DNA from: Oceanobacter kriegii DSM 6294 | Lineage (GTDB): Bacteria; Pseudomonadota; Gammaproteobacteria; Pseudomonadales; Oceanobacteraceae | Assembly (NCBI RefSeq): GCF_000422845.1 | Contig: NZ_AUGV01000020.1 | Coordinates: forward strand, 1 to 64,000 | Length of the DNA stretch: 64,000 nucleotides | Direction of reading: 5' to 3' | Shown: one piece after another, positions 4,797 to 29,133 of the stretch | How the letters are laid out: each line of letters begins with the position of its first letter | Position numbering within the stretch: position 1 is the first letter of the stretch | The notes under the pieces: generated by a model | What the model saw: the letters and a program-made list of their open reading frames with translations, nothing else | The model's database searches: none | What the model was told of the DNA's origin: nothing | Translations under genes and position numbers: made by a program

Positions 4797-4894
4797 GATC
4801 ATTCCCCCGCCTATGGTTTTTTTTGTCCTGCATCACCTCTCATTGGGTAGATACAGGAACCATGCCAGAACGGTTGAAAATCAATCCAGGTGGA

Positions 4895-6824: not shown

Positions 6825-6857
6825 GGAACGTCCTTGCCTGAGAAAGAGATTGGAAAA

Positions 6858-7526
6858 TTAGCGTTGCACGCCGGATAAGAAAGGTACGAACCAGGCATCT
6901 TCCAGCTCTTTGGTGACAAAATTGTCGCCGTGGCGGGTGATCAGCACCAGTCGTTGTTGTTTGCGGCCACCCACCGGCATCACCAGTCGGCCGCCGTCGG
7001 CCAGTTGTTCCTTCAACGCTTGTGGAACCTGCTCGGGTGCTGCGGCAACCAGAATGCCTTCAAACGGGCCTTTTTCCGGCAATCCCCAGCTGCCATCGGA
7101 CAGCGAGCAGGACACATTGCGGTACTTGAGGTCGTACAGGCGGTTGCGGGCCTTGGCGTAGAGCGGCTCGATGCGTTCGACCGAATACACCTGATCAACA
7201 AACTGCGAAAGCACGGCCGATTGATAACCGCAGCCGGTGCCCACTTCCAATACCCGCCCCAGACGTGGCTGCTCACCCAACAGAATTTCTGTCATGCGCG
7301 CCACGGTGTAAGGCTGACTGATGGTTTGGCCATGACCAATCGGCAATGGCGTGTCTTCGTAAGCACGGTGAGAAAGGGCTTCATCCACAAACAGGTGCCG
7401 TGGGATCGACGCCATCACCGCCAGAACCTGTTCGTTCTTGATACCGGCATCGCGCAATCGTTGCACCAGTCTGTCACGGGTTCGTTGTGAGGTCATGCCA
7501 ATGCCGCTGACCAGCTGGGTTGTCAC
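6858..7526 (-). CDS. pcm: Protein-L-isoaspartate O-methyltransferase
   Basis: Cytoplasmic repair enzyme that methylates L-isoaspartyl residues in aged proteins using S-adenosylmethionine. The 222-residue protein has the family block LPIGHGQTISQPYTVARMTE and the SAM-binding motif VLEVGTGCGYQSAVLS. The start is GTG at 7526, chosen because AGGAG lies 9 bases upstream; an internal ATG at 7496 (MTSQRTRDRL) matches the Pseudomonas N-terminus but has no ribosome site. It lies 17 bases after surE in the usual surE-pcm order, suggesting one transcript. Confidence 0.95.
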   Translation of the reverse strand: MTTQLVSGIGMTSQRTRDRLVQRLRDAGIKNEQVLAVMASIPRHLFVDEALSHRAYEDTPLPIGHGQTISQPYTVARMTEILLGEQPRLGRVLEVGTGCGYQSAVLSQFVDQVYSVERIEPLYAKARNRLYDLKYRNVSCSLSDGSWGLPEKGPFEGILVAAAPEQVPQALKEQLADGGRLVMPVGGRKQQRLVLITRHGDNFVTKELEDAWFVPFLSGVQR

Positions 7527-7543
7527 CTTGTTGTTCTCCTCGT

Positions 7544-8284
7544 TTACCCCAAAACCACCTGCAAGTGTTCCAGCGCAGTGTGGTGTGTCATGTCCATCTG
7601 AATCGGCGTAATGGATACGTAGCCGTGTTCAATGGCATGAAAATCGGTTCCTGGCCCGGCGTCTGCAACCTCTCCAACCCCGGCAATCCAGTACAGCTGT
7701 TTACCGCGGGGGTTGGTGGTCAGTACCGGGTTATCAGACTTGAGTCTGTGGCCCAGCCGGGTAATTTTGTGGCCGGCCAGTTGTTCATAAGGAACATCCG
7801 GCACGTTGATATTGATGACGCTGTTGACTGGCAACTGCAAACGTTCGAGCTTTGGCAGCAGCTCAATAATAACCCGGGCAGCAGTTTCAAAATGCTGTTT
7901 GCCGACCAGCGAAACCGCCACCGGCGTTTTGGCCAGAAAGCGGCCTTCCATCGCCGCGGCAACGGTGCCGGAATAAAGCACGTCATCGCCCAGGTTTGCG
8001 CCTGCGTTAATGCCCGATACTACCCGCTCGCATTGTCCTTCAAACAGCGAGTTAATGCCCAGATGCACACAGTCAGTCGGCGTACCGCTGACACTGACAA
8101 AGCCGTTGTCCAGGGTGGTTGGCAACAACGGGCGATCCAGCGTCAGAGAATTACTGGCACCGCTGCGATCGCGGTCGGGCGCAATCACCGACACCTGATA
8201 GCCGTTGGACTGCAATGTCTCGGCGAGCATTTTCAGGCCCGGCGCCTGGGCACCGTCGTCGTTCGATAGCATCACATGCGTCAC
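7544..8284 (-). CDS. surE: 5'/3'-nucleotidase SurE
   Basis: Metal-dependent nucleotidase acting on nucleoside monophosphates and short polyphosphates, associated with stationary-phase survival. The 246-residue protein begins with the metal-binding motif [11 protein letters not shown] (D9, D10) and contains [19 protein letters not shown] and the GTPTDCV segment. The start is GTG at 8284, with AGGAG 7 bases upstream. It lies 13 bases after truD and before pcm in one direction. Confidence 0.96.
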
Positions 8285-8297
8285 GATTTGTCTCCTG

Positions 8298-9404
8298 TCA
8301 TTCCGGTGCTGTCGGGGCTGGAGCCAGCTCCCGTTGTGGTTCTTCGGCGACCAGAATTTCCTTCAACAATGAAGTTGCATAATAACCGGCCCCGAGGCAA
8401 AAACAGACCTTCAGGGAGAGGGAATTGTCGGCTTCTGCCAACCAGGTCCAGCTCATGGCTTCCGGCATCACCACCAGAGAACGGCGCTCCTGACTGAGGC
8501 CACTGTGCTCCAGCGCATCCAGTACGTCCTTGTAACGGAACAGCACGCCCGCTTCAAAACCGCCCAGCTCACCGCTCACCAGTGAACGGCCACGGCCCCA
8601 CATCGGGCCGGTAGGCAAGCCTTTGTCGTCGAGCATTTGCTCGGCCGCATCGTGTGCCAGCGGACGATTCCAATGGCCACAAGCCACCCGTGCTGCCAGC
8701 ACTTCATTGAATAGGTAAGACCGAACCGCCGACAGGTAAATGCTTTTCTTGTTGGCGTTACGAACGCGCATTTCACGGCGCAGCATTTTGATGCCCGCTT
8801 CAATGTTGCCGCCGTCATGGCCAAAACGCTGATCACCAAAGTAGTTCGGGTAGCCGCCCTGCTGAACCTGTTGCAGGTTGTGCTCCATCGCCTCGCGATC
8901 GCCAGTGACGTTGCGCAGGGTAATCACAAAGCGGTTGCCCAGCAGATCGCCACGGCGCAGTTTTTTGTTGTGGCGGGCCTGGCTCAGCACCTTGAATTCG
9001 TCATGCTGGATCGAGGTAAAGTCCGGCGTTTCGCCTTTGGGCAGATACACACTGAACCACTGTTTGGACACCGAATGGCGATCCTTGAGGCCAGCAAAGC
9101 CCACGTCGAGGTCACGGACACCGGCAAAACGGGCAATTTCAGCTGCTACAAAAGCGGTGTTGGCGCCAGTCTTTTCCACCCACATCCAGACGTGCTCGCC
9201 TTCGCCGCAGGGCATGCCCAGCGGCAATTCATCGACCAGAAAATCCTCTACCGCCTGTTTCAGCGTGCCTCGACCATCGGTTTGTGGCAAACCCGACGGC
9301 CACCAGGCTGGCCATTGTGGCAACGGCTGTGCGGCCACCGGCTTGTCTTCCGCAGGCGCCGAAGGAGATCGGGATGATTCGTTTTGGGTGTTGGCTTCAG
9401 TCAA
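8298..9404 (-). CDS. truD: tRNA pseudouridine(13) synthase TruD
   Basis: Converts uridine 13 of tRNA-Glu to pseudouridine. The 368-residue protein contains the catalytic motif [18 protein letters not shown] with Asp108, and NYFGDQRFG, both diagnostic for TruD. The frame opens with a TTG codon at 9404, with GGA about 9 bases upstream; the first 40 residues are Pro/Ala/Ser rich and poorly conserved, so the exact start is less certain than the rest. Located between ispF and surE as in Pseudomonas. Confidence 0.95.
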
Positions 9405-9465
9405 GGTGTGTTTCCGACAGACAATACGTTCGATAGAGCGCAGGCTCGCCGAGCCTGCGCCGGTG

Positions 9466-9945
9466 TTAATTGGAAGACGCGACGATCAGTGCGACCGCGT
9501 GCACAGAGATGCCTTCCTTGCGCCCCACATAGCCCAGCTTTTCGGTGGTGGTGGCTTTCACGTTGACGTCATCAAGGCGCACGTTAAGGTCAGCGGCAAT
9601 GGCCTGACGCATATTGCTGATGTGCGGTGCCATTTTCGGCGCCTGGGCAATGATGGTGACATCAACATTTCCTACCACATAGCCTTTGTCAGCAATCAGG
9701 CTGACCACATGACGCAACAACATGCGGCTGTCGGCCCCCTTCCACTGCTCATCGGTATCCGGGAAATGCTGGCCAATATCGCCCAGCGCGGCAGCGCCCA
9801 GCAAGGCATCGGCCAGTGCGTGCAGTGCCACATCGCCGTCCGAGTGCGCCTTGAGGCCGTGGGTATGAGGAATTTGTATGCCGCCCAGCGTAATAAAGTC
9901 GCCTTCGTCAAAGGCGTGTACATCAAAACCGTGTCCGATTCGCAT
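9466..9945 (-). CDS. ispF: 2-C-methyl-D-erythritol 2,4-cyclodiphosphate synthase
   Basis: Fifth step of the MEP isoprenoid pathway: cyclisation of CDP-methylerythritol 2-phosphate with loss of CMP. The protein starts [12 protein letters not shown] with metal ligands D8 and H10, then [18 protein letters not shown] and a conserved C-terminal GYVGRKEGI. The longest frame begins with GTG at 9957, but GGAG abuts that codon; the ATG at 9945 gives the standard family N-terminus, so 159 residues are annotated. It follows ispD in the same direction with about 90 bases between. Confidence 0.96.
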
Positions 9946-10034
9946 GGCGTTACTCACTCCGTTATGAACATCCCGAGCGCTGGTAATAGTAGCGCCGGGA
10001 CAAGCAATGATTCAGGGGCTGTAGTGTAACGGTT

Positions 10035-10733
10035 TTAGGTCCGCTTTTGCTGCAAGAACAGCTCGGCAAGGGCAAGATCTTCCGGTCGGGTGACCTTGAT
10101 GTTGTCGGCACGGCCCGCAACCAGACGCGGCTGATGGCCAAGATGCTCTATCGCCGAGGCTTCGTCGGTCACGCCAAAGCCGTCTGCGAGGCTCTGCTCG
10201 ATGGCTTGCGTGAGTAATCCCAGCGGGAAAACCTGTGGGGTCAGGGCATGCCAGAGCTGTTCGCGTTCGACTGTATGGTCGATGACCGTATCGCCCGCCG
10301 CATTGGTGATGCCACGCTTCATGGTATCGCGGGTGGGACTGGCCAGAATCGCGCCGGGGAAGCTCAACTGAGCAATCAGGGTGTCGAGATCGCTGTGAGC
10401 AAGGCATGGACGGGCAACGTCGTGTACCAGCACCCAGTCATCTGGCTGGCCAAATTCAGCGATGCACTTGAGGCCGTTCAATACAGAAAAGTAACGCTCC
10501 GGGCCGCCACTGGCGCGCACAATGCGTTCGTCGTTGGCAAATTCGGAGTTTGGCCAGTACGGGTCCTGATCGGACAACACCAGAACCAGTTGCCGGAACG
10601 CCGGGTAAGCCAGCAGGGTTTCGAGTGTATGATCAATCAGCAAACGCTGATTAAGGGAAAGGTATTGCTTGGGGCGGTCGGCTTGCATACGGGAACCAAC
10701 GCCCGCAGCGACCACCAAAGGCCAGATTGTCAT
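10035..10733 (-). CDS. ispD: 2-C-methyl-D-erythritol 4-phosphate cytidylyltransferase
   Basis: Third step of the MEP pathway, coupling CTP to methylerythritol 4-phosphate. The 232-residue protein has the nucleotide-binding N-terminus PLVVAAGVGSRM, the PKQY motif and the active-site segment DWVLVHDVARP. Its ATG overlaps the ftsB stop by 4 bases, so the two are translationally coupled; ispF follows, giving the common ftsB-ispD-ispF cluster. Confidence 0.96.
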   Translation of the reverse strand: MTIWPLVVAAGVGSRMQADRPKQYLSLNQRLLIDHTLETLLAYPAFRQLVLVLSDQDPYWPNSEFANDERIVRASGGPERYFSVLNGLKCIAEFGQPDDWVLVHDVARPCLAHSDLDTLIAQLSFPGAILASPTRDTMKRGITNAAGDTVIDHTVEREQLWHALTPQVFPLGLLTQAIEQSLADGFGVTDEASAIEHLGHQPRLVAGRADNIKVTRPEDLALAELFLQQKRT

Positions 10734-16884: not shown

Positions 16885-17508
16885 ATGTCTGATTTACTGA
16901 TTCACATCCAACCTGCGCTGACCGGCTTTGCCATTACCATGGGCCTGATCGTGGCGATTGGCGCCCAGAATGCCTGGATTTTGCAAAAGAGCCTGCGTGG
17001 CGAAAACCCGTGGACCATCGCCAGTGTGTGCATTGCGCTGGATGTGGTGCTGGTGTCGGTGGGTGTGTTTGGACTGGATTACATTCAGGGCCTGATTCCG
17101 GGACTGGTGCCGGTGTTAACCTGGATGGGCGTTGCCCTGCTGCTGTGGTTGGCCTTTCAAGCCTTCGGGCGAGCCATGCAAAGCGGCGATGGACTGGTGG
17201 CTGCGGGACCAGCTGAAGCGGTCAGTCCATGGAAAAGCGCTGGTCAGGTGATGGCCCTGTCACTGATTAACCCACACGTTTATCTGGATACCGTGGTATT
17301 GATTGGCAGCGTTGGTGCACAACAATCCCACCCCGGCGTGTTTGTGATTGGCGCTGCTATGGGGTCTACCTTGTGGTTCTGTACGCTGGTGACCGGCGCC
17401 AAGAAGCTGCGCCCTTACCTGACCTCGGCCCGTCATTGGCAAATTCTGGATGCCACCACAGGCTCTGTACTGGTGCTGGTAGCGCTGTCGATTGCGCCGA
17501 TTTGGTAA
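16885..17508 (+). CDS. LysE/ArgO-family amino-acid exporter
   Basis: A 207-residue inner-membrane protein with about six membrane segments. The N-terminal block GFAITMGLIVAIGAQNAWILQKSL and the central MALSLINPHVYLDTVVLIGS are diagnostic for the LysE/ArgO family, which exports basic amino acids (arginine, lysine, canavanine). Its neighbour is a divergent ArgP-like regulator, which fits induction by the exported amino acid. The stop is followed within 5 bases by a 7-bp tandem array. Confidence 0.93.
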   Translation: MSDLLIHIQPALTGFAITMGLIVAIGAQNAWILQKSLRGENPWTIASVCIALDVVLVSVGVFGLDYIQGLIPGLVPVLTWMGVALLLWLAFQAFGRAMQSGDGLVAAGPAEAVSPWKSAGQVMALSLINPHVYLDTVVLIGSVGAQQSHPGVFVIGAAMGSTLWFCTLVTGAKKLRPYLTSARHWQILDATTGSVLVLVALSIAPIW

Positions 17509-17513
17509 AAACG

Positions 17514-17597
17514 TCGGATGTCGGATGTCGGATGTCGGATGTCGGATGTCGGATGTCGGATGTCGGATGTCGGATGTCGGATGTCGGATGTCGGATG
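17514..17597. repeat. Perfect 7-bp tandem array, 12 copies of TCGGATG
   Basis: Twelve uninterrupted, identical copies of TCGGATG, beginning 5 bases after the exporter stop codon. Because the unit is 7 bp, all three frames are read through in turn. Perfect identity points to recent expansion by slippage, so copy number is probably variable between strains. It is followed by a long palindrome and a REP-like element. Confidence 0.97.
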
Positions 17598-17610
17598 TCA
17601 TCAGAACCGT

Positions 17611-17799: not shown

Positions 17800-18570
17800 T
17801 CACACCGGATTATCAATATCCACAAAGGTCACTTTCACGCCGAATTCGGTTTCCAGATGCTGGCCCAGCGCCCGGGCACCATAGCGTTCGGTGGCGTGGT
17901 GGCCAGCGCTGTAGAAGTGGGTGCCGGTTTCGCGGGCAAGGTGTACTGCCGGTTCGTTGATTTCGCCGGTAATAAAGGCATCCACACCGGCGTCCACCGC
18001 CAGTTGCAAATACCCTTGTGCGCCCCCCGTACACCAGGCCACGGTTTCAACGATGTCTTCGTTTTCGCCAATGTGCAGCGGCTCGCGGTCGAGCTTTGAC
18101 GCAATCCACTGGCTGAATTCAGCGGCGGTCATGGCTTTGGGTAGTTTACCAATAGAGCCCGGTGTCGATGGGTCAAGCGGGTCAATCGGTCCGGTGGTTT
18201 CCAATTCCAGCAGATCGGCCAGCTGCGCGTTGTTGCCCAGCTCCGGGTGAACATCCAGCGGCAAGTGGTAAGCGATCAGGTTAATGTCGTGCTGCAGCAG
18301 CGCTTTCAGGCGTTCTTTTTTTATCCCGACCACCCGCTGGTCTTCGCCTTTCCAGAAATAGCCATGGTGTACCAGCAAGGTATCGGCACCCAGTTCAATG
18401 GCTTCTTCAATCAATGCCTGACTGGCGGTCACGCCCGTCACGATGTGATGAATGCGCTCGCGGCCTTCCACTTGCAAACCATTGGGGCAGTAGTCCCGGG
18501 TGCGGCGGGATTGCAGCAAATTTTCAAGATGCGTCAGTAATTGCTTTCGATCGATGGCCGTTTCCAACAT
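17800..18570 (-). CDS. Nif3-like dinuclear metal-centre protein (YbgI family)
   Basis: A 256-residue protein of the Nif3/YbgI (GTP cyclohydrolase I type 2-like) family. Metal-ligand motifs are visible: [33 protein letters not shown] and [20 protein letters not shown]. The biochemical role of the family is unsettled. It is divergent from the AlgW/DegS-type protease, the same pairing as in Pseudomonas aeruginosa. The two longest frames overlap, but the protease start used here (18712) leaves a normal intergenic promoter space. Confidence 0.93.
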
Positions 18571-18711
18571 GATGCTTCCAGACTATTTTCGTTATGGCGA
18601 CAGACTGGCAGAATACCCGCTATTACCCCTGTTTTTAAATGGCCTGCCGCACGCTACCGGTTACCGCCGCGTATTTGGCATTGGCCTGCTTCCTCAAGGA
18701 GACTCTATCGG

Positions 18712-19944
18712 ATGGCAAGATATTCCTTCGTACACTCATTGCTGGTTCCAGCACTGGTTGGCTTGTGCGTTGCTTTGATGATCTTGCTTTGGGCACCCCA
18801 GTGGATAACCGGCGAAACCGCAACCACCAGCCCGCTGCCACCTGCACCAGTAACCGATACCGAACAACCGGCCGACGTAACGCCGCTGCCGGCCATTGTC
18901 GACGACGTTGAAACAGCCGCTCCAGCAACCGAAGCCATGCCGTTTGTGGCCAGCTACGCCAACGCCGTTGAGCGCGCCGCCCCTGCGGTTGTGAATATTT
19001 ACACCAGCAAGGTGATTCGTCGTACCGCGCATCCGCTCTACAACGACCCGATTTTCAAACGCTATCTGGAATCGAACCCGGAGCCGAGCGAACGCATTCA
19101 GTCGAGCCTGGGGTCTGGCGTCATCATGACCTCTGACGGCTACATCCTGACCAACAACCACGTGGTAAAGGATGCCGACCAGATTGTGGTGGCGTTGCAC
19201 GACGGTCGTGAAGCCAAGGCATCACTGATTGGTACCGACCCCGAAGCCGATCTGGCGCTGTTGAAAATCACGTTAGAAAAGCTGCCGCACATTACCCCGG
19301 CCGGTTCACACAAGATGCGGGTTGGTGACGTCGTGCTGGCCATTGGTAATCCGTTTGGTGTTGGCCAGACCGTCACCCAGGGCATTGTGTCGGCAACCGG
19401 GCGCAACCAGTTGGGTCTGAACACCTACGAAAACTACATTCAGACCGACGCAGCGATTAACCCGGGCAACTCGGGCGGCGCGTTGGTAAACGCCTGGGGC
19501 GAGTTGGTAGGCATCAACACCGCAATTTACTCCCAAAGCGGCGGCAGTGAAGGCATTGGCTTTGCCATTCCGGTCGACGTGGCTCAACGTACCCTGAAAG
19601 ACATTTCCGAACACGGCGTCGCCATTCGCGGCTGGCTTGGCATCGAAGTACAGGAAGCCACGCCCAAGCTGCTGTCTGCGTTGGCCTTACCCGACGCGCT
19701 GGAAGGTTTGATTGTGACGGGGATTTATGAAGAAGGCCCGGCCGACCGTTCCGGCCTGACCGTGGGCGATATCATCGTCAAGATTAACGAGCAGGATGCC
19801 AGCGATGCCCGCGCGTCCATGAATCAGATTGCCGCTTTGCGCCCGGGCGACCGCATCCAGCTGGAGTTCATTCGTAACGGCAAGATCAACAAAACCGAAG
19901 CGATTGCCGGTCAACGCGGTCAGCCACAGCAGCCCGCTGGTTGA
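18712..19944 (+). CDS. algW: Periplasmic serine protease of the DegS/AlgW type
   Basis: Membrane-anchored HtrA-family protease that, in Pseudomonas and E. coli, senses misfolded outer-membrane proteins and starts cleavage of the anti-sigma factor for the envelope-stress sigma factor. A membrane anchor near residues 6-27 (FVHSLLVPALVGLCVALMIL) is followed by a Pro/Thr-rich linker, a trypsin-like domain with the triad H150 (TNNHVV), D180 (EADLAL) and S254 (NPGNSGGA), and one PDZ domain (about 300-395). One PDZ plus an anchor marks DegS/AlgW and not DegP. The longest frame starts at 18541 but the ATG at 18712 has AAGGAG upstream and begins the anchor; 410 residues. Adjacent to the divergent Nif3-like gene. 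Confidence 0.93.
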   Translation: MARYSFVHSLLVPALVGLCVALMILLWAPQWITGETATTSPLPPAPVTDTEQPADVTPLPAIVDDVETAAPATEAMPFVASYANAVERAAPAVVNIYTSKVIRRTAHPLYNDPIFKRYLESNPEPSERIQSSLGSGVIMTSDGYILTNNHVVKDADQIVVALHDGREAKASLIGTDPEADLALLKITLEKLPHITPAGSHKMRVGDVVLAIGNPFGVGQTVTQGIVSATGRNQLGLNTYENYIQTDAAINPGNSGGALVNAWGELVGINTAIYSQSGGSEGIGFAIPVDVAQRTLKDISEHGVAIRGWLGIEVQEATPKLLSALALPDALEGLIVTGIYEEGPADRSGLTVGDIIVKINEQDASDARASMNQIAALRPGDRIQLEFIRNGKINKTEAIAGQRGQPQQPAG

Positions 19945-21081
19945 TCAGCGTTGTAACTCTTTCAGACCGGAGTAGCGAAAAGCTTCTTTCATCAGCCGGT
20001 CGATCTCGTCTCCGGTCATGTGGTTGTTCACCACCGTGATGCGCCCGAGGTAAATCTCGGGCACTTCGTCTTGCCGACCTTGCAGGTAATAGCGAACGGC
20101 TTCGGCGGTAGCCACGCCCACGTCGTCGCTCATGCGCATCGGTGTGGCGTCGAGCTTGCCTTCACGAATCTTCTGAATTTCCCTGCGGGTGCCGCCCCAA
20201 CCGGTAATGTACAGGTCGTGATGGGCATCACGGCGGTCTGCTTCTTCAATAGCGCCCATGGTCATCGCTGTATTGGCGTTATGCAGCACGTAGATTTCCG
20301 GGAAGTTTTTCAGAATCAGCGCCGCACCATCGGCACCACCGGCCTTCTGATACTGGCCAAAATGTTCGTACAGATTGATCCAGTGACCTTCCGACTCGAC
20401 ACAGTCCTTGAACTCCTGCGAACGCTGCTGATCGGTAACCCCGGGAATCCCCCGGTTCATGCCAAAGTACAAATCCGGCCCCAGTTCTTGCAGCAGAAAA
20501 TCACACATGGCCTGCGCCCCCTGCGAACTGGAAAAGTCGAACCAGGCCGCTGGCTTGTGGGACCACTCCTCATCCGGGGTATGAAACGCCCAGATAAAGG
20601 TGCTGAACTGTTGCTCTGCTGACAAGCGCTGAATGTTGGATGCCTGCACTTGCAGTTCGGTAGGGCCCAAAATCACAAAGTCGAATTCGTCAGCACGTTT
20701 CAACACCTCGTCGGTATGCCGATCCTGCAACGAATGCTCCAGCTGGGCAGAGCTGAACTCGGTGATGTTGTAGTCAATGTTCAGCTCGTCCAAACGCGAT
20801 TTCATGGCCACAAAGTTACGGTCCCAGAAGTCCGATATGTCGGCATTTGGGTAAATCAAGGCGATCGAAACCGGGCTGTTTTGCTCCAGTGCCGGTGGCT
20901 GGCTTGGGGCGCTGACCACCTGCTGGAAAGCACGCTCAACCGTGTTTTCCGACGCAGGGTCAGTCACCGACTCGGTCTTTGACGCCGGCACCGGCCCTGT
21001 CGACGCATGCGCCGCAGCCGCCAACACCAATGTGGAAAGTTTCAGGAACAGGCGGGTGGTTATGGTCACAGGCAAGCGCAT
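19945..21081 (-). CDS. LuxP-like periplasmic binding protein
   Basis: Type-1 periplasmic binding protein of 378 residues. The start at 21081 (MRLPVTITTRLFLKLS) gives a signal peptide cleaved after AHA (26); the longer frame to 21186 would add a non-signal extension and overlap the divergent gene. The C-terminal half, from memory, resembles Vibrio LuxP closely: ITGWGGTRREIQKIREGKLD, PMRMSDDVGVATAEA and MKEAFRYSG. Positions matching LuxP ligand residues appear partly kept (S83, W86, R220, R316) and partly changed (D81 where LuxP has Gln; no Asn before HTP at 167-169). A related but different ligand from AI-2 is therefore possible. It is divergent from a second binding protein and a GGDEF-EAL protein, suggesting it feeds that sensor as LuxP does LuxQ or TorT does TorS. 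Confidence 0.85.
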   Translation of the reverse strand: MRLPVTITTRLFLKLSTLVLAAAAHASTGPVPASKTESVTDPASENTVERAFQQVVSAPSQPPALEQNSPVSIALIYPNADISDFWDRNFVAMKSRLDELNIDYNITEFSSAQLEHSLQDRHTDEVLKRADEFDFVILGPTELQVQASNIQRLSAEQQFSTFIWAFHTPDEEWSHKPAAWFDFSSSQGAQAMCDFLLQELGPDLYFGMNRGIPGVTDQQRSQEFKDCVESEGHWINLYEHFGQYQKAGGADGAALILKNFPEIYVLHNANTAMTMGAIEEADRRDAHHDLYITGWGGTRREIQKIREGKLDATPMRMSDDVGVATAEAVRYYLQGRQDEVPEIYLGRITVVNNHMTGDEIDRLMKEAFRYSGLKELQR

Positions 21082-21119
21082 CGCATCAAACCCCAATCGA
21101 TAAAGCACAACAACATGCC

Positions 21120-21125
21120 TATAAT
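21120..21125 (+). promoter_or_regulatory. Candidate -10 element in the divergent sensory promoter
   Basis: A perfect TATAAT lies 33 bases before the ATG at 21158 in the 76-bp space between the two binding-protein genes. No good -35 is present at the expected distance, so an activator may be needed or the hexamer may be fortuitous. Confidence 0.35.
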
Positions 21126-21157
21126 ACATAGCAAATAACAATTTGTGCCGCAGCAGT

Positions 21158-22261
21158 ATGTCGACCTTGAAGTTACTGAAGCTCATGATGTTGCTCAGTC
21201 TGGTTCAGTCAGCTCAAGGAACGGAGCATGAACACGCCACCGATACCAGCCAGCGTGTTCAGCTAGCCATTCAGAACGAATCCTCATGGGATGGACCAAC
21301 CACAGGCCCCGCCCTGAAACAGCAGCGCCAGATTATTCTGGTGGCCTCCGATCTTCGCAATGGCGGTGTTAACGCCGTTGCCAAAGGCATGTCCGAAGCC
21401 CTGACCGGCACCGACTGGAACCTCGGCTTTCTGGATGGCATGGGCTCGCCCTTGCGTCAGGGCATTGCCATCCGCAAGGCCATTGCCGCCAACCCCGATG
21501 GCATTGTCCTCTGTGGTCTGGATGCCAACCAGCACAAAGACGTACTGGCGCTGGCCAAACAACGAGGCATCACCGTTGTAGGCTGGCATGCCGCCGATCA
21601 GGCAGGCCCTCGGCCGGAAAGCCACCTGTTTACCAACATCACCACCGATCCGATCAAGGTCGCCGAAATTGCCGCCCTGCTGGCCATCAGCGACAGCGCC
21701 GGGCAGGTAAGAGCGGTGATTTTTACCGACTCCCGCTACCAGATTGCCAAACTCAAGGCCGAGCGCATGGCCGCCGTACTGCATGACTGCAAAGGCTGCG
21801 ACGTGCTGGAGGTCAAGGAAGTGCCGCTGGATCAGATTGCCGACCGGATGCCTGACGAGCTGGAAACCCTGATGCAGGAATATCCGCAAGGCATTACCCA
21901 CCTGTTGGTGATCAACGACCTGTACATCGACTTTGCGGTGCCCACCCTCGAGCGTCGCCACGAAAACGATCAACCGATTCCGCAAACCATTTCCGCCGGC
22001 GATGGCAGTCGGGCGTCGTATCGTCGTATTCGCCAGGGACTGTATCAGCGCGCCACAGTGCCAGAGCCCCTGACGATGCAGGGTTGGCAAATTGTTGATG
22101 AACTTAACAGAGCGTTCAATCAAGCCCCTCCAAGTGGCTACAGCGCTCCTGTGCATCTGGTAACCCGCGACAATATTGGTAAGCTGGGCAAACGTTACGA
22201 CGTCTACGATCCCATCAATCGTTACCGTGACGCCTACCGAGCCATCTGGAGTCTTCAGTGA
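21158..22261 (+). CDS. Periplasmic sugar-type binding protein (Peripla_BP_4)
   Basis: A 367-residue type-1 periplasmic binding protein. The ATG at 21158 begins a signal peptide (STLKLLKLMMLLSLVQSAQG); the open frame extends to a TTG at 21143. The fold is recognisable from RQIILVASDLRNGGVNAVAKGM, the strand-turn segments PDGIVLCGLDAN and VVGWHAADQAG and the hinge region VINDLYIDF. No ABC permease or ATPase is nearby; instead its stop overlaps by 4 bases the GTG start of a membrane GGDEF-EAL protein, so translation is coupled and the protein most likely presents a ligand to that sensor. Ligand unknown. Confidence 0.85.
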   Translation: MSTLKLLKLMMLLSLVQSAQGTEHEHATDTSQRVQLAIQNESSWDGPTTGPALKQQRQIILVASDLRNGGVNAVAKGMSEALTGTDWNLGFLDGMGSPLRQGIAIRKAIAANPDGIVLCGLDANQHKDVLALAKQRGITVVGWHAADQAGPRPESHLFTNITTDPIKVAEIAALLAISDSAGQVRAVIFTDSRYQIAKLKAERMAAVLHDCKGCDVLEVKEVPLDQIADRMPDELETLMQEYPQGITHLLVINDLYIDFAVPTLERRHENDQPIPQTISAGDGSRASYRRIRQGLYQRATVPEPLTMQGWQIVDELNRAFNQAPPSGYSAPVHLVTRDNIGKLGKRYDVYDPINRYRDAYRAIWSLQ

Positions 22262-24729
22262 AGCTGCTACCGATGTCCATTGCCACTCGTCTGATGCTGA
22301 CCGTAATGGTTCTGGTAGCTTTGGGCGCGGCCGGGTTTTTGTTTGCGGTGCGCTCACTGGATGCCTTTGAAAACATCCTCGACTCCGAATCCAGCGAACA
22401 CATCGACCTGCTGACCACCAACTCCGTTGTCAGCCGTCAGGTATTTGAGCTGACTACCCGGGTGCAATTGCTGGAACAGGCGTTTCTGTACAACGAATCG
22501 GTACTGACTCAGGAAGGCTTTAACATCGACCAACAGTTGTTGCGCATGCGCGACCTGTCGGCCGACGCCGCCTTCACCACCAAGATGGACCGCTTCATTG
22601 AAGACTTTCACCGCTTTCTCGGTAATTCGCTGGCGCTGAACCACATCATCCGGGAAACCAAGGAAATCGACGAAACCCTCGCCGAGCAAATTGACCAGCT
22701 CGACCTGATGATTGCCAATCAGCATCTGGCGCAACCGGACTCCGTCGTTGGTGATGATCTCAGCCACGACCGCGACCTGATCCACATGCTGCGCGAAACC
22801 TTTCTCGACACCGGCAAAATGGTCGGCAGCATTCGTAGCCGCATCACGCCCGAAACCGAGAAAGTCGGCATTATCGAAGTGCAAAAAGAGCTGGATATCT
22901 TCCAGCTGCACCTGGCCAACCTGGCCCTCAGCAACCACAATATGGCCTCCCACCAGCAGGCCATGGATCGCTCGGTGCATCGCTACATGACGGCACTGAG
23001 AAAAATGCAGGCCAATCTGGACCAGCGCTGGAACGTCATGAATGCGTTGATGAATTCCCAGAACGAATTACTGACACTGGTAGAAAGCACCGAAGCCAAC
23101 GTTCAGAACAGCGCACTGGGTCTGAAGTACCGACTGCAAAACGACATCCGCCAATCGCGGCTGATCTTTATGGCACTGGCCATCATTGTGCTGTTTATCA
23201 GCCTGTTTATGATCAGCTACGTGGTACGCCGCCACGTGCGGGAGCCACTGGAAAAAATCAGCGAAGGCCTGCGTCAGTTTGAAGCCTCGGAGTTTTCCCA
23301 GCGTATTTCACTGCACCGCAATGACGAGTGGGACCGCATCGAACGGGCTTTCAATAAAATGGCCGACCGCTTGCAGCAAAGCTATGGCCAGATCAATCAG
23401 GAAAAGAAAAACTTCGACTTCCTGGCGCACCACGACCCGCTGACCAAGCTGTCCAACCGGCTGTTCATCAACAAATACCTCAACCAGCAAATCGAACTGG
23501 CCAAGGACGGCAAGCAAAGCCATTTTGCCCTGCTGTATATGGATATTGATGAATTCAAAACCATCAACGACTCCCTCGGCCATGGCGCCGGTGACAAGCT
23601 GCTGATCGACATTGCCGATGTGCTGTCCAGCGAGATTCACGAACTCGGCACGGTGGCGCGTATGGGCGGTGACGAGTTCATGGTGCTGTTGCCGGATATC
23701 CGCGACCAGCAAGAAGCCGAAGACATTGCCGCCAGCATCAACAGCAACCTGCGCCGTCCCTACTTTCTGGAAGACAAAACCGTCTTTGTATCTGCCAGCA
23801 TTGGCCTCTGCATGTTCCCGCAGCACGGTAACCAGGCCGATACCCTGGTGCGCAACGCCGACACCGCCATGTACCACGCCAAGCGGCGCGGCCGCGACCA
23901 GTATTGTGTTTACAACGACGACATGACTCTGGAAGCCAAGGACCATATCGACGTCAGTGCCGGTTTGCACCGCGCCATCAACAATGGCGAACTGGAACTG
24001 GTGTTCCAGCCGCAATACCGACTCAGCACTGAAACCATTATTGGTGCCGAAGCCCTGATCCGCTGGAACCATCCGGAGCACGGCTATCTGGGGCCGATGT
24101 CGTTCCTCGCCGTTGCCGAGAAAACCGGCTTGATCAACCTCATCGACGACTGGGTATTCCGTCAGATGACAAGCCTGATTACCGAATGGCAACGACAGGG
24201 CATCTGCCTCGAGGGTCTGAAATTTGCCATCAACTTCTCGGGCCGCAAATTCCTCGATGAAAAGCTGGTCGAACAGTTAACCGACATGATTTCCACCACC
24301 GACTGCAAGCCGGAACAGCTAGTGCTGGAAATTACCGAGCGGGATGTGATGTCGTCCATCGACACCAGCGCCGCCACCATCAAACGGCTGCGCGAAAAAG
24401 GCTACCGCATTGCCATCGACGACTTCGGCACCGGCCACTCGTCACTGGCACTGCTGAAAAACCTGCCGGTCAACACCATCAAACTGGACCGCAGTTTTAT
24501 TCAGGACATTGCTTCCAGCGAACGGGATTTGGCCATTGTCCGCTCAGTGCTGACACTCACCAGCGAACTGAAGCTAGGCACCGTTGCCGAAGGCATCGAA
24601 TGCCGCGAACAAGCCGAAAAACTGAAAGAGCTGAACTGTCCCAACGCCCAGGGCTATCTATTCTCGAAACCACTCAGCATTGACGACTGGCTGGCGCTGA
24701 TTCAGCAACAAAATCAACAAAGCGTCTGA
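22258..24729 (+). CDS. Membrane sensor with HAMP, GGDEF and EAL domains (c-di-GMP turnover)
   Basis: An 823-residue inner-membrane protein. Membrane segments near 11-31 and 302-322 enclose a periplasmic domain of about 270 residues that is almost wholly helical by composition, with no Cache or PAS signature; this recalls the TorS-type sensor that docks a periplasmic binding protein. HAMP (about 323-376) is followed by GGDEF (intact motif at 470-474, no RxxD inhibitory site 5 residues before it) and EAL (E598-A599-L600, with ITERDV, DDFGTGHSS and TVAEGIE all intact). Both synthesis and hydrolysis of c-di-GMP are therefore possible. The start is GTG at 22258, overlapping the preceding binding-protein gene by 4 bases. 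Confidence 0.93.
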   Translation: MKLLPMSIATRLMLTVMVLVALGAAGFLFAVRSLDAFENILDSESSEHIDLLTTNSVVSRQVFELTTRVQLLEQAFLYNESVLTQEGFNIDQQLLRMRDLSADAAFTTKMDRFIEDFHRFLGNSLALNHIIRETKEIDETLAEQIDQLDLMIANQHLAQPDSVVGDDLSHDRDLIHMLRETFLDTGKMVGSIRSRITPETEKVGIIEVQKELDIFQLHLANLALSNHNMASHQQAMDRSVHRYMTALRKMQANLDQRWNVMNALMNSQNELLTLVESTEANVQNSALGLKYRLQNDIRQSRLIFMALAIIVLFISLFMISYVVRRHVREPLEKISEGLRQFEASEFSQRISLHRNDEWDRIERAFNKMADRLQQSYGQINQEKKNFDFLAHHDPLTKLSNRLFINKYLNQQIELAKDGKQSHFALLYMDIDEFKTINDSLGHGAGDKLLIDIADVLSSEIHELGTVARMGGDEFMVLLPDIRDQQEAEDIAASINSNLRRPYFLEDKTVFVSASIGLCMFPQHGNQADTLVRNADTAMYHAKRRGRDQYCVYNDDMTLEAKDHIDVSAGLHRAINNGELELVFQPQYRLSTETIIGAEALIRWNHPEHGYLGPMSFLAVAEKTGLINLIDDWVFRQMTSLITEWQRQGICLEGLKFAINFSGRKFLDEKLVEQLTDMISTTDCKPEQLVLEITERDVMSSIDTSAATIKRLREKGYRIAIDDFGTGHSSLALLKNLPVNTIKLDRSFIQDIASSERDLAIVRSVLTLTSELKLGTVAEGIECREQAEKLKELNCPNAQGYLFSKPLSIDDWLALIQQQNQQSV

Positions 24730-24804: not shown

Positions 24805-24831
24805 GAATAATGAGAACAGTTTTCATTATTC
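24805..24831. promoter_or_regulatory. Fur box upstream of fecI-like gene 1
   Basis: A 27-bp near-perfect palindrome, GAATAATGAGAAC-A-GTTTTCATTATTC, with 12 of 13 paired positions symmetrical. The core 19 bases (24809-24827) match 14 of 19 of the Fur consensus. It covers a TAGAAT that could serve as -10 (24803-24808) and overlaps the ATG of the longest open frame, which argues that the sigma gene starts further down at 24852. Confidence 0.75.
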
Positions 24832-24851
24832 ACCGCCAACTGACTCCATTC

Positions 24852-25379
24852 ATGAAGCCGTTTAACTCGTTGCTGGCCACCTTGCGTCAACAGGAAGATT
24901 CCCTGCTGTATTTTCTGACCAGCAAAGTCGGCTGTCGGGACACCGCCGCCGATTTGTTTCAGCAACTGGCCGAAAAGCTGTTACGCAAAGAACAACCCAG
25001 TGACAAACCGGTCGATAACGAAACCGCCTACCTCTACAGGGCAGCCAGAAACGAAGTGATCAGTCATTTTCGCAGTGAACAAAGTCGTGCCCGCTACGAA
25101 CACGACTACATGGAAACCAGCGCCAGCAACGACAGCTACAATGTCGAGGAAGCCGCCCTGGCCCGTCAGAAAGTGCAGCAACTGAACACCACCCTGAAAC
25201 AGCTGCCGCCACTGACCCAGGAGATTTTCTGGCGCTACCGGATCGACGGTCAACGTCAGAAAGACATCGCCGAGGCTCTGGATGTGAGCCTCTCTACCGT
25301 CGAAAAACACCTGGCCAATGCCACCAGCACCATGCGACAAAGTCTGCGTCAGACAGACACGCGCCCGGCCAACCGATAG
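24852..25379 (+). CDS. ECF sigma factor, FecI type (module 1)
   Basis: Iron-starvation extracytoplasmic-function sigma factor expected to transcribe the downstream receptor gene when the receptor signals ligand through FecR. The 175-residue product has region 2 (SLLYFLTSKVGCRDTAADLFQQLAEKLL, ETAYLYRAARNEVISHFR) and region 4 (QLPPLTQEIFWRYRIDGQRQKDIAEALDVSLSTVEKHLANA). The open frame begins at 24810 inside the Fur box, so the next ATG, 24852, is used; no strong ribosome site is seen at either. Followed 15 bases later by fecR. Confidence 0.9.
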   Translation: MKPFNSLLATLRQQEDSLLYFLTSKVGCRDTAADLFQQLAEKLLRKEQPSDKPVDNETAYLYRAARNEVISHFRSEQSRARYEHDYMETSASNDSYNVEEAALARQKVQQLNTTLKQLPPLTQEIFWRYRIDGQRQKDIAEALDVSLSTVEKHLANATSTMRQSLRQTDTRPANR

Positions 25380-25394
25380 CAGACCGATTAGCAC

Positions 25395-26450
25395 ATGGAT
25401 AACGCAACCTGTCCCGACGCCCTGGCCGATGAAGCCTTTGCGATGATCCGGGATTACTACGATGCCGACACCGATGGTGCCGCCGCCGTAACCAAACAGC
25501 ACATGGAAACCTGGTGCCAGCAATCCGAGCAACATCGCTTGGCGATGGAACAAGCCAGTGAAGAATGGCACCTGATGGGCGCATTGTCCCAGGTGGCAGA
25601 GCGCCCGCCATACACCCACAAGGCAGAAGCCAGCTGGCTGGCCCAATGGCTGACACCCGTTCGACTGATGCAGGCCGGGTCGGCATTTGCCGTGATCCTG
25701 ATGCTGGCCATTCTGGTGCCGTCATTCTGGAACACGGATGCAACTACTGGCAGCGCCAACATAGCCAGCAGTCAGGCCAACCGCCAGCAGGACCTCAATT
25801 ACCAAACCCGCTTGCAGTCGGTGTACGGCGAAATCGTCACCCGCACGCTGCCGGACGGCAGCACCGTGTCGCTGAACTGGGACAGTGAAGTGGCGGTGAA
25901 TTTCAGCGCCGGCCAACGCTCGCTGACCCTGATTCGGGGCGAGGCGTATTTTGAAGTGGCTCACGACACCAGCCGACCCTTTATTGTCAGTGCCGGACAG
26001 GCCCGAGCGCGCGCCGTTGGCACCGCCTTCAATGTACGCGCCGACAGCGGAAAAACCCGTATTGCGGTCACCGAAGGCACCGTCGCAGTCACCGGCAGCT
26101 CACGCTCCACCACACTGGTGAATGCCAGCGAAAAAGTCGCCGTGACCGATGGCCAAACTGGCGCAGTCAGCCCCTCGGCCAACCTGCAAGCCACTGCCTG
26201 GCAGCAGGGCTCGATGATTTTCGACGGCCAACCACTGGCCGACGTACTGGACGAAATCAATCGCTACACCCAATACCAGATTGATACCCGCTTCCTGCCT
26301 AACCCCGAAGCGCCGGTCAGCGCCACCTACTTCATCAGCCGCACCGACGAAGCCGTGCGCTCGCTGATGCAGCTGTTCAATTTGCGGGCCGACATGCGCA
26401 ACGGCATTGATGGCCCACGGCTGGTACTGCGCGCTCGCCTTGGGCGTTGA
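25395..26450 (+). CDS. FecR-type anti-sigma factor / regulator (module 1)
   Basis: Inner-membrane protein of 351 residues linking the TonB receptor to the sigma factor. Cytoplasmic N-terminal part (about 1-85, MDNATCPDALADEAFAMI with an acidic, Trp-containing region), one membrane segment (about 96-117, AGSAFAVILMLAILVPSFW), and a periplasmic FecR domain with RTLPDGSTVSLNWDSEVAVNF, FEVAHDTSRPFIVSAG and ARAVGTAFNVRAD, then a C-terminal STN-like segment that meets the receptor signalling domain. Immediately downstream of the sigma gene, upstream of the receptor. Confidence 0.93.
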   Translation: MDNATCPDALADEAFAMIRDYYDADTDGAAAVTKQHMETWCQQSEQHRLAMEQASEEWHLMGALSQVAERPPYTHKAEASWLAQWLTPVRLMQAGSAFAVILMLAILVPSFWNTDATTGSANIASSQANRQQDLNYQTRLQSVYGEIVTRTLPDGSTVSLNWDSEVAVNFSAGQRSLTLIRGEAYFEVAHDTSRPFIVSAGQARARAVGTAFNVRADSGKTRIAVTEGTVAVTGSSRSTTLVNASEKVAVTDGQTGAVSPSANLQATAWQQGSMIFDGQPLADVLDEINRYTQYQIDTRFLPNPEAPVSATYFISRTDEAVRSLMQLFNLRADMRNGIDGPRLVLRARLGR

Positions 26451-26468
26451 GGCCGGAAACCAACAGGC

Positions 26469-26492
26469 TGTAGGAGGGAATTTATTCCCGAA
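26469..26492 (+). repeat. REP-like palindrome, GTAGGAG type with GGGAAT stem
   Basis: CTGTAGGAGGGAATTTATTCCCGAA: the same head and tail as the element at 17756 but the stem is GGGAAT-TT-ATTCCC instead of GCGAAT-TT-ATTCGC, that is, one base pair changed on both sides. It lies 18 bases after the fecR stop. Confidence 0.75.
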
Positions 26493-26506
26493 GACATTCC
26501 CAAATT

Positions 26507-26531
26507 GATTCCCGGTGCCCCATCGGGAATC
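26507..26531. terminator. 8-bp hairpin between fecR 1 and receptor 1
   Basis: GATTCCCG, a 9-nt loop and CGGGAATC form a perfect 8-bp stem without a T run. It shares ATTCCC with the adjacent REP-like element. It could slow transcription between fecR and the receptor, which is usually expressed from its own promoter. Confidence 0.4.
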
Positions 26532-26686
26532 AACGTCCTGCTGCAACACGCAACTCATCATCACCAGCAAGAAGCTATCGCTCTCGCCCCACATACACCC
26601 CGCCCCCATCCCACTGACATATCTTTTAAAAAACTTTTTTACGGGTTTTCTGCGGCGGCTGCGTCTTCCTTTTATTCGTTATTAAT

Positions 26687-26713
26687 TGTGATTCTTATTT
26701 ACATAAAATCACA
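26687..26713. promoter_or_regulatory. A/T-rich inverted repeat before receptor 1
   Basis: TGTGATT and AATCACA, separated by 13 bases, lie 24 bases before the receptor start in a strongly A/T-rich stretch. The halves resemble a CRP half-site but the spacing is not that of CRP. It lies where the FecI-dependent receptor promoter is expected; no known sigma motif was recognised. Confidence 0.3.
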
Positions 26714-26736
26714 TTCAGGTATCAAAGGAGCCCCCC

Positions 26737-29133
26737 TTGCAACGCCCGGTATATGCCCAACGCCAGTTGTTATCCCTCGCCATCAGCGCCGCCTTGTTGT
26801 CCCCTGTTGCCGTTAGCAGCCTGCCAGCTAATGCAGCCGCGGCTTCTCCGGCCTCTGCCAGCACCCAGTCTATCAACATCGCCGCTCAGCCACTGGATCA
26901 GGCTCTGAACCAGCTGGCCATTCAAACGCGCACTCAAATCAGCGCCAGCAGCGTCGACCTGCCGAGTGTTCAGGCTCCGGCCATTCAGGGTAACTACAGC
27001 GTTGAACAGGCGTTGCAGACCTTGCTGCAAGATACCGAACTGACCGTACGCAAGGTTGGCAACAACAGCTACGTCGTTGAAGCACCAGTGCAACCGTACA
27101 GCTACGTTGATCAGCCGCTGGAAGAAGTGTTCGCCGTGGGTGGTTACATTGAGCGTGAACAACTGGACACCGCCACCGGTCTGGGTCTGAAGCCGATTGA
27201 AACCCCTCAGTCCGTTACCGTATTCACAGCCCAGCGTCTGAAAGACCAGCAGCTGGAAACCATTCAGGACGTGATCAGCAGCACCATCGGTCTGACCAGC
27301 ACCGATACCGACACCGTTCGAAACACCTTCTCTTCCCGTGGTTTTGAAGTATCCAACTACCAGGTCGATGGCCTGCCATTGTCCTGGTCGCTGGGCGGCG
27401 ATTCCGGTGAAACCATTGCCGATGTCTCCATGTACGAGCGCGTTGAATTTGTTCGTGGTGCCACTGGCCTGCTGACCGGTGCCGGTAACCCGTCAGCGTC
27501 GATCAACTTTGTTCGCAAGCACGCTGACAGCGACGAATTCCACGCCACCATCGATGCCTCCGTGGGTAGCTGGAACAAGAAAGAAGTGTCCGTTGATGTT
27601 GGTGGCGGTTTGAACGAATCCGGTTCTATCCGTGGCCGTCTGGTCGCCAAGCGTGGCAGCAAGGATTCCTGGCAGGATCTTTACCATGAAGACCGCACTG
27701 TGTTGTACGGCACAGCCGAAGCTGACATCAGCGACAGCACCCTGGTACGCATTGGTGCCAGCATGGACCACCACGAACCAACTGGCGTGACCTGGGGTGC
27801 TCTGCCAAGCAACTTCAGCGACGGTAGCCAGACCGACTGGGACCGTTCCAAAACCACCTCTGCCGACTGGACCAAGTGGGAAACCAAGGGCACCAACCTG
27901 TTCCTGAACGTCGAGCACACGCTGGACAATGGCTGGTTGGTCAAGGCCAACGCCAACCGTCTGATTTACGACAAGGACACCAAACTGCTGTATCTCTACG
28001 GCAGCCTCGACAAAGAGACTGGTACTGGTCTGGTCACCTCTCCAATCAACTCCTACGGCTACAGCCGTCTGGACACCGTCAATCTGCAGCTGCAAGGCGA
28101 TTTTGAACTGGGTGGCAACTACCACGAGTTCACCATGGGCATTCAGCGTTCGATCCAGAAAGCCCAGACCTGGGAATATGACGAACCAGAAGATACCCCT
28201 ACCACGGGTAATTTCTACGAGTGGGATGGCAATGTAACGGAACCCGACTGGGCTGATACTGCAACCGAAAAACTCAACATGCGCACCATCCAGACAGGAG
28301 CCTACGCAGCAGTACGTTTCAACATCACTGACGAGTGGAAAACCATTGTTGGCGGTCGTATCGCCAGCTGGAATCGCTCCGGTAATAGCTGGGGCGCAGA
28401 TACTAACTTTGGCGACAACGGCGTATTTATCCCTTACGCCGGCGTACTGTACGACCTCAATGAGCAGCACCGCCTGTACGCCAGCTACACCACCATCTTT
28501 ATGCCGCAAAACGCGTTCGAAGCGAACGGCGACCAGCTGGACCCACTGGAAGGTAGCAACAAGGAAATTGGCCTGAAGAGCAGCTGGCTGAACGACCAAC
28601 TGCACACCACCATTACCGCCTTCCGAATCGATCAGGACAACCTTGCACAAGACCTGACCGATGAAAGTGGCGGTATCGTTTACATCAATGGTGACACGGA
28701 TCGTGGTCAGGCCAGCTATTCAGCCGACGGCACAGTCACACAGGGCTACGAACTGGAAGTCGTTGGTGACCTGAGCGAAAGCTGGAAGCTGCACACTGGT
28801 TACACCCACTTCACCGCCGAAGACAAAGACGGTGGTGACGTAAACAGCAATCAGGCTCGCGAAACCTTCAACCTGTTCACCACCTATGAAATGGCCGACC
28901 TGACCGTGGGCGGTGGTGTCGACTGGCAAGGCCGCACCTACAACGGCGACCTGGAGCAAGAAGCCTATGCACTGGTGAACCTGATGGCTCGTTATCAGAT
29001 CACGCCGCAATTCTCGACCCAGTTCAACGTTGCCAACCTGACCGACAAGAAATACTTCAGCCAGGTTGGCAGTGGTATTTACCGCTACGGCGCGCCACGC
29101 AAACTGAATCTGGCGGTCAGCTACAGCTTCTGA
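26737..29133 (+). CDS. TonB-dependent siderophore receptor with STN signalling domain (module 1)
   Basis: Outer-membrane transducer of 798 residues. Signal peptide to about residue 36 (ends NAAAA), STN domain about 45-110 (INIAAQPLDQALNQLAIQTRTQISAS, GNYSVEQALQTLLQDT), TonB box region around EEVFAVGGY, plug domain with ETPQSVTVFTAQRLKDQQ and RGFEVSNYQVDGLP, then a 22-strand barrel ending in the terminal aromatic SYSF. The plug and the ferrisiderophore-type signatures resemble FpvA/FhuE/FoxA receptors for hydroxamate-type siderophores, but the ligand cannot be named. The start codon is TTG at 26737, fixed by AAGGAG 6 bases upstream. Downstream of sigma and FecR genes that should control it. 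Confidence 0.95.
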   Translation: MQRPVYAQRQLLSLAISAALLSPVAVSSLPANAAAASPASASTQSINIAAQPLDQALNQLAIQTRTQISASSVDLPSVQAPAIQGNYSVEQALQTLLQDTELTVRKVGNNSYVVEAPVQPYSYVDQPLEEVFAVGGYIEREQLDTATGLGLKPIETPQSVTVFTAQRLKDQQLETIQDVISSTIGLTSTDTDTVRNTFSSRGFEVSNYQVDGLPLSWSLGGDSGETIADVSMYERVEFVRGATGLLTGAGNPSASINFVRKHADSDEFHATIDASVGSWNKKEVSVDVGGGLNESGSIRGRLVAKRGSKDSWQDLYHEDRTVLYGTAEADISDSTLVRIGASMDHHEPTGVTWGALPSNFSDGSQTDWDRSKTTSADWTKWETKGTNLFLNVEHTLDNGWLVKANANRLIYDKDTKLLYLYGSLDKETGTGLVTSPINSYGYSRLDTVNLQLQGDFELGGNYHEFTMGIQRSIQKAQTWEYDEPEDTPTTGNFYEWDGNVTEPDWADTATEKLNMRTIQTGAYAAVRFNITDEWKTIVGGRIASWNRSGNSWGADTNFGDNGVFIPYAGVLYDLNEQHRLYASYTTIFMPQNAFEANGDQLDPLEGSNKEIGLKSSWLNDQLHTTITAFRIDQDNLAQDLTDESGGIVYINGDTDRGQASYSADGTVTQGYELEVVGDLSESWKLHTGYTHFTAEDKDGGDVNSNQARETFNLFTTYEMADLTVGGGVDWQGRTYNGDLEQEAYALVNLMARYQITPQFSTQFNVANLTDKKYFSQVGSGIYRYGAPRKLNLAVSYSF

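Follow-up and report, generated by a model that had tools for sequence, protein, structure and literature searches.

A candidate cyclic di-GMP signalling cassette with two periplasmic binding proteins, one of them LuxP-like, in Oceanobacter kriegii

Three adjacent genes of Oceanobacter kriegii DSM 6294, which encode two periplasmic binding proteins and a membrane-bound GGDEF-EAL protein, probably form one signalling cassette in which the binding protein(s) would steer cyclic di-GMP (c-di-GMP) via the membrane protein. The trio lies at 19945-24729 of the stretch of DNA analysed here, referred to as the window (GCF_000422845.1, contig NZ_AUGV01000020.1, positions 1-64,000). Open reading frames (ORFs) together with Pfam, phmmer and profile searches placed a LuxP-like binding protein of 378 amino acids (aa), called A hereafter, on the minus strand (19945-21081). 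On the plus strand follow the gene of a second, ribose-type binding protein of the Peripla_BP_4 family (B, 367 aa, 21158-22261; by Pfam, profile and model), which is the partner gene of the sensor, and the gene of the sensor itself (823 aa, 22258-24729). The stop codon TGA of B overlaps the start codon GTG of the sensor by four bases (22258-22261). A and B are divergent and separated by 76 bp (21082-21157, from the ORF positions), presumably the promoter region, provided that the start of A is at 21081 rather than at an ATG further upstream, at 21186; the A-B intergenic stretches of the window and of seven other loci were compared by eye for a promoter motif. An earlier note, made from the sequence alone, had given these ORFs, coordinates, the 76-bp space and the four-base overlap, and all of them hold.

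The sensor comprises a transmembrane segment, a periplasmic domain, a second transmembrane segment, HAMP, GGDEF and EAL, as judged by Pfam and a structural model, with the transmembrane segments assigned by eye. HAMP (23224-23379, plus strand), GGDEF (23425-23901, plus strand) and EAL (23965-24672, plus strand) were all found above the Pfam cut-off. A motif check found the GGDEF motif of the window protein intact and without an inhibitory RxxD site, and the checked catalytic residues of EAL were present, as the earlier note had read them. Since the positions checked in both domains are intact in 34/34 sensors, the one of the window included, both synthesis and breakdown of c-di-GMP are possible. 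For the periplasmic domain (22351-23166, plus strand), which matched no Pfam family at cut-off, AlphaFold2 predicted nothing but helices (mean predicted local distance difference test score (pLDDT) 80.9, predicted template modelling score (pTM) 0.68), in agreement with the all-helical domain proposed before. No match reached E 0.001 in a Foldseek search with this model; of the 50 that were listed, PilJ had the best E value (1.6e-3, template modelling (TM) score 0.37), McpS ligand-binding domains reached TM scores of 0.58-0.62 and TorS 0.40-0.49 (E 0.013 and worse). In a Pfam scan of 32 sensor domains the best of the families listed (25 of 32) was a coiled-coil model (E 0.003). The LuxQ-periplasm family (PF09308) was not among the families listed there and had no match in the window sensor at E 0.1.

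The contigs of GTDB genomes were scanned with a five-row alignment of A, which yielded 199 stretches and 167 relatives; in the best 80 of these, trio and transporter genes were called by BLAST of the ORFs. The trio was found in the same divergent layout at 33 of the 80 A loci, which is more than chance would give, and in all 33 the genes of B and the sensor overlap or are at most 3 bases apart. The loci belong to Marinomonas (11), Vibrio or Vibrionales (17), Grimontia (2), Enterovibrio (1) and uncultured Pseudomonadales (2), and the trio members differ by 36-40% in sequence, on average, across genera. Distribution is patchy. In the organism's own family A was found in 1/44 genomes, that of the window (E 1e-20), and so was B, while the other 43 had neither at the thresholds used. 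An A-like match was present in 13/293 genomes of the order at 1e-25, but the close matches came from the own genome and from a pair of genomes of a single genus (58% identity), and exactly these three genomes matched a profile of the sensor domain. In the class, A matched in 4/369 genomes, the own included (two matches of 51-52% identity adjoin ABC transporter genes, another has 29% identity), and the sensor-domain profile in one, the own.

Among the 48 genomes of the genus of genome G250, taken as Marinomonas, the sensor-domain profile matched in 12 and the A profile in 23 at 1e-10, with 12 strong matches (E < 1e-179) and 11 weak ones (7e-11 to 5e-15). The 12 genomes with a strong A are exactly the 12 with the sensor. 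The co-occurrence of the three genes, for which the earlier note had proposed a survey of other genomes, was indeed found. If the two were independent, the chance of such an overlap would be 1/C(48,12) = 1.4e-11, a figure that ignores kinship and is in reality less extreme. The pairwise distances of A, those of B and those of the sensor domain are correlated (r 0.94-0.96), which shared ancestry alone could give. Loci L047, L052, L057 and L066 were taken to be from the same genomes as G250, G269, G713 and G715. The A matches of G698 and G708 were each flagged for one internal TAA, but they coincide in position with L035 and L064, in which this TAA would be the codon just ahead of the ATG of an open A gene. 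All 33 trio loci were used for motif checks, trees, pocket, CxxC and distance comparisons; L038 and L051 were left out of alignment A4, and L038, L049, L051, L057 and L062 out of alignments A5 and A6, for thinning of near copies and, in the case of L057, because the ORF call of B overruns at its start.

The other 47 A loci (L067-L113) are mostly alphaproteobacterial (Rhodobacterales and others), four of them (L100, L104, L109 and L111) having gammaproteobacterial titles, and have a different context. A is accompanied by a permease homologue in 45/47 and by an ATPase of about 250 aa in 43/47, and in 33/47 there is also a B homologue, which comes with its own permease and with an ATPase of some 500 aa; in the two loci without permease (L101 and L107) A lies near the end of the fetched stretch. 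Transporter genes of this sort were scanned with Pfam in L020 and L021, where they belong to BPD_transp_2 and ABC_tran, and we take these sugar-type transporters to be of the CUT2 type. In contrast, the fetched stretches of the 33 trio loci yielded no permease homologue, and the ATPases of ABC transporters seen in five of them have 24-29% identity and are several kb away. Near the 47 transporter-type loci are a LacI-type regulator (31/47; one was scanned and was nearest to GntR/IdnR models), SMP-30-like proteins (23), a second, CUT1-like transporter (13 to 18, depending on the component), gluconokinase-like (11), PdxA-like, DapA-like and aldehyde dehydrogenase-like (10 each) and sugar-acid dehydratase-like (9) enzymes. 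SMP-30, gluconokinase and CUT1 were named by eye, the other neighbours by sub-threshold NCBIfam matches of examples; no substrate can be named, since none of ten proteins of three transporter loci (L069, L085 and L104) was above an NCBIfam cut-off. In Alphaproteobacteria, then, the A and B homologues are the binding proteins of a pair of neighbouring sugar-type ABC transporters, with sugar-acid enzymes close by, and on this ground sugars or sugar acids are the most likely ligands. Autoinducer-2 (AI-2) is probably not the ligand.

B is a binding protein of the ribose/glucose type. It matched Peripla_BP_4 with 65.2 bits (cut-off 35.1), had one weak phmmer match in the PDB (E 0.08) and a sugar-binding protein as best profile match (5e-6), and the best fold matches of its model (mean pLDDT 91.8) were glucose-galactose- and ribose-binding proteins. 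A CxxC motif (C211 and C214; 21788-21799, plus strand) is present in 34/34 sensor-linked B proteins (33 trio loci and the window) and in 0/33 transporter-linked ones, which were judged on their last 345 residues; it is also found in the B-like protein next to an additional sensor in G715 (see below). In the model of B the site lies between the helix 195-209 and the strand 215-221. We guess that a disulphide there shapes a face for docking on the sensor; alternatively, the motif may serve redox sensing.

A has a Sec-type signal peptide, by eye, and matched Peripla_BP_4 with 52.9 bits (cut-off 35.1). In the PDB, phmmer found LuxP first (E 3e-35), followed by ribose-binding proteins from 4e-6 on, and with a 35-row profile LuxP reached 5e-54 and the runner-up 3e-11. 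By these searches A is a LuxP homologue, nearer to LuxP than to other binding proteins, as the earlier note had supposed. The likeness to TorT, which had been suggested as well, was not borne out: TorT is absent from the PDB match lists of A (phmmer E 0.1; profile E 0.001) and B (E 0.1; profile E 0.01) and from the 50 fold matches listed for B, and membership of the trio in the TorT/TorS kind finds no support there. A quick maximum-likelihood tree of A has the transporter-linked, LuxP-like and sensor-linked groups each on one side of a branch, with supports of 97, 100 and just 19, and a tree of B has the same split into sensor-linked and transporter-linked proteins (100 and 84); both trees came with a warning of long branches, among them those of the window's A and B, and mark none of the groups as ancestral.

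In the structure of LuxP (1JX6), AI-2 is described as hydrogen-bonded by Gln77, Ser79, Trp82, Asn159, Arg215, Thr266 and Arg310 (PMC9687752), and the phmmer alignment gave D81, S83, W86, A165, R220, T271 and R316 as their counterparts in A. These seven positions are invariant in 81/81 A proteins, 34 sensor-linked (33 loci and the window) and 47 transporter-linked ones. Since they are identical in both groups, sensor-linked and transporter-linked A probably bind the same compound. Five of the seven contacts are kept, among them S83, W86, R220 and R316, which the earlier note had picked out. The other two are changed throughout: Gln77 is replaced by Asp (codon 81, 20839-20841, minus strand) and Asn159 by Ala (codon 165, 20587-20589, minus strand) in 81/81, whereas a LuxP-like outgroup has Q and N in 12/12 (at the R215 position 11 of these have R and one has C). 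Of the neighbour genes of the outgroup nine were scanned, which encode eight histidine kinases and one LuxQ-periplasm GGDEF-EAL protein, with LuxQ-periplasm exceeding the cut-off in three, falling short of it in two and missing from the listing in four; L029, L031 and L033 were labelled from their A-like sequence. The pocket of this LuxP-like subfamily thus differs from that of AI-2 receptors, and an altered ligand is likely, in line with the different signal suggested before. Two arginines of LuxP have been proposed to hold the borate ester of AI-2 (PMC3794749). Both are kept in A, which would suit an acidic ligand. A separate observation was made at L022 (G293:C9:100000-115000), where a LuxP-like gene overlaps a gene for a LuxQ-periplasm-PAS-PAS-GGDEF-EAL protein by four bases (3967-8126, minus strand). 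Its LuxP-like protein carries Q and N at the two pocket positions, as in the AI-2 type, and the pair is, as far as its sequence tells, a plausible LuxPQ-type receptor from AI-2 to c-di-GMP, which bears on the earlier note's idea of a LuxP-like protein with c-di-GMP output more directly than the trio of the window.

How could the cassette work? B would be exported to the periplasm and bind a small sugar-like ligand, and ligand-binding B would dock on the sensor at its helical periplasmic domain. From there the signal would pass along the second membrane helix and HAMP and shift the balance between c-di-GMP synthesis by GGDEF and breakdown by EAL, in a direction that we can only infer; the shift in c-di-GMP would in turn decide whether the cell swims or stays attached. 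A may be a second ligand reporter to the same sensor, which docks alongside B, competes with it or reports a second, related ligand.

Several points weigh against a single cassette of all three genes. The sensor-domain profile gave 14 matches in the 12 genomes, and the two extra sensors are differently arranged. In G715 (L121, G715:C9:1339000-1351000; 4823-8449, plus strand) a B-like gene lies upstream of the sensor, with no A within the 12 kb read, and in G713 (L122, G713:C4:630000-645000; 4740-10090, minus strand) two sensor-GGDEF-EAL genes stand in tandem downstream of one B, so that the extra sensor has no binding protein gene of its own. B and sensor therefore look like the core and A like an addition, and A, which is divergent and missing at one B-sensor pair, may lie outside the receptor complex. 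Since A served as the query that found the 33 loci, they cannot show that it is always present, and the sensor-based searches covered the order, the class and the genus of G250, with Vibrio outside them. Further, 30 listed conserved positions differ between sensor-linked and transporter-linked B, for which reason the ligand of B may have changed and its being the same in both groups is less sure than for A. McpS binds carboxylic acids directly, TorS works via a binding protein, and it is McpS that fits the sensor domain better.

The first of these points lead to an alternative which we regard as unlikely but the best of the rivals, namely that B alone is the ligand-loaded partner of the sensor and A is co-regulated with another job, for example ligand scavenging or competition. 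The tight spacing of the B and sensor genes, the pair without A in G715 and the location of A on the opposite strand are as expected from it. On the other hand, A is present in all 12 sensor-bearing genomes of the 48 of one genus and in the 33 trio loci, which were found via A, and the distances of A track those of the sensor domain (r 0.943). The probabilities given to this alternative and to the cassette of all three overlap, since both share the part of B.

That A is instead a quorum-sensing receptor which binds AI-2 like LuxP and reports to c-di-GMP appears improbable. LuxP is the nearest solved protein to A, and five of the seven residues that bond AI-2 are kept. Three LuxP sensory domains picked randomly from 267 predicted LuxP receptors, which may or may not have the D/A signature, are reported to bind AI-2 (PMC12268683), and AI-2 does act on c-di-GMP in Vibrio furnissii, where it is described to do so by another route, the kinase pathway AsrK-AsrR (PMC11796354). 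We nevertheless set this reading low, given the pocket changes and the transporter context of the relatives of A, and because the own genome gave no LuxS match. A LuxS match was not found in G293, G582 and G618 either, although the trio-bearing G250 and G269 have one. In G715, besides the trio, a separate A-like protein adjoins a LuxQ-periplasm kinase, so that two kinds of LuxP coexist in one genome. Equally improbable is direct sensing of a small molecule by the helical domain in the manner of McpS, whose domains are among the best fold matches, with A and B as leftover parts of transporters, since decaying remnants would hardly stay linked to the sensor across genera at such sequence differences, with no permease homologue in the fetched stretches of the trio loci and with a CxxC of B that is limited to the sensor-linked group.

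A single cassette remains our preferred reading, and it can be taken one step further, although we put this extension forward tentatively and would not rely on it: a dual-input receptor in which the binding proteins of two neighbouring sugar transporters, one of them from a new LuxP subfamily that does not bind AI-2, jointly report to one bifunctional c-di-GMP enzyme via an undescribed helical domain. The cell would then weigh two related sugars of algae or hosts against each other, or add them up, before it attaches or leaves. In any case, the trio looks like a patchy, compact cassette of marine gammaproteobacteria which probably ties a specific sugar signal to the choice between attachment and swimming. 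Homologues of the same two binding proteins appear to feed transport in one group and c-di-GMP in the other, which means that the transporters could be used to find the ligand and the signalling proteins to test it. The data also suggest that likeness to LuxP need not mean AI-2 sensing: the two-residue signature, D/A versus Q/N, marks a LuxP-like subfamily, observed in 81 proteins, and homology surveys may count such proteins as AI-2 receptors.

No transporter gene was found among the flanking genes scanned in the window, as the earlier note had stated, and the single match of the own genome to the usual permease of A has 30% identity and lies on a different contig. The scanned neighbours encode a trypsin-PDZ protease, an extracytoplasmic function (ECF) sigma factor, FecR and a TonB-dependent receptor. 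The protease gene (DegS/HtrA-like; 18541-19944, plus strand) abuts the end of A at 19945 on the minus strand, and the other three are located downstream of the cassette (24810-29133). Further away, a perfect tandem repeat of the heptamer GTCGGAT (12.4 copies, 17513-17599) lies just past an ORF (16885-17508) with the look, by eye, of a LysE-type exporter. A recent foreign origin was considered, but base composition gave no sign of it, since the GC content of the cassette (0.556) is close to that of the window (0.559). The own genome (4.5 Mb, 36 contigs) has 35 GGDEF matches, 34 of them above the cut-off, and is therefore rich in c-di-GMP signalling. A wider conserved operon was not found either: when ORFs of at least 120 aa around the 33 trio loci were clustered and groups in at least 6 loci considered, neighbour groups were common to at most 8 of the 33. 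An MsrA-like gene is near the trio in 8/33 loci, which belong to Marinomonas and Grimontia (L035, L036, L037, L038, L039, L047, L052 and L060), and the MsrA-like neighbour was identified as PMSR by Pfam in L018; the other groups are confined to Vibrio.

A description of this three-gene combination was not found in the literature searched, where most subscription journals fell outside. The earlier note's statement that no such system is described therefore stands for this exact make-up but not for the principle, since pairs of a binding protein and a GGDEF-EAL protein are described. Of the known systems, LuxP-LuxQ is similar in its binding protein, to which A is homologous and of whose seven AI-2 contacts A keeps five, but the partner in the trio is no kinase, no LuxQ-periplasm domain was found in it and two contacts of A are changed in every member. 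TorT-TorS has the same logic of a binding protein and a membrane receptor, and the helical domain of TorS is among the fold matches listed, but the output of the trio would be c-di-GMP rather than a kinase and A and B do not find TorT by sequence. With CUT2-type sugar transporters of the RbsB-like kind the trio shares homologues of A and B, which adjoin permease and ATPase genes in Rhodobacterales and relatives, whereas in the trio loci no permease homologue was found. NspS is a PotD-like protein. The NspS-MbaA system is described for Vibrio cholerae and also for Sinorhizobium meliloti. The gene of NspS lies directly upstream of that of MbaA, a GGDEF-EAL receptor under its control (PMC8079147, PMC5646818), and NspS acts on MbaA (PMC11575326). 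Like the trio, it has a binding protein gene next to a membrane GGDEF-EAL receptor; unlike the trio, it uses one polyamine binding protein and not two sugar-type (Peripla_BP_4) ones in divergent genes. In Vibrio parahaemolyticus, the bifunctional ScrC changes over from making c-di-GMP to degrading it when ScrB docks on it (PMC11315295). There the operon holds a signal-making enzyme, ScrA, and one binding protein, whereas the trio has no gene for such an enzyme. Control of receptors by binding proteins has been described as general and widespread (PMC9602780). With ScrB-ScrC and NspS-MbaA the trio shares a binding protein gene beside a GGDEF-EAL gene, the lack of a transporter and intact motifs of both domains. 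In sum, the sensor appears to be of a kind already known, while its make-up and the likely non-AI-2 signal appear to be new, and by analogy the trio would work like ScrBC and NspS-MbaA, with two binding proteins, one of which is LuxP-like.

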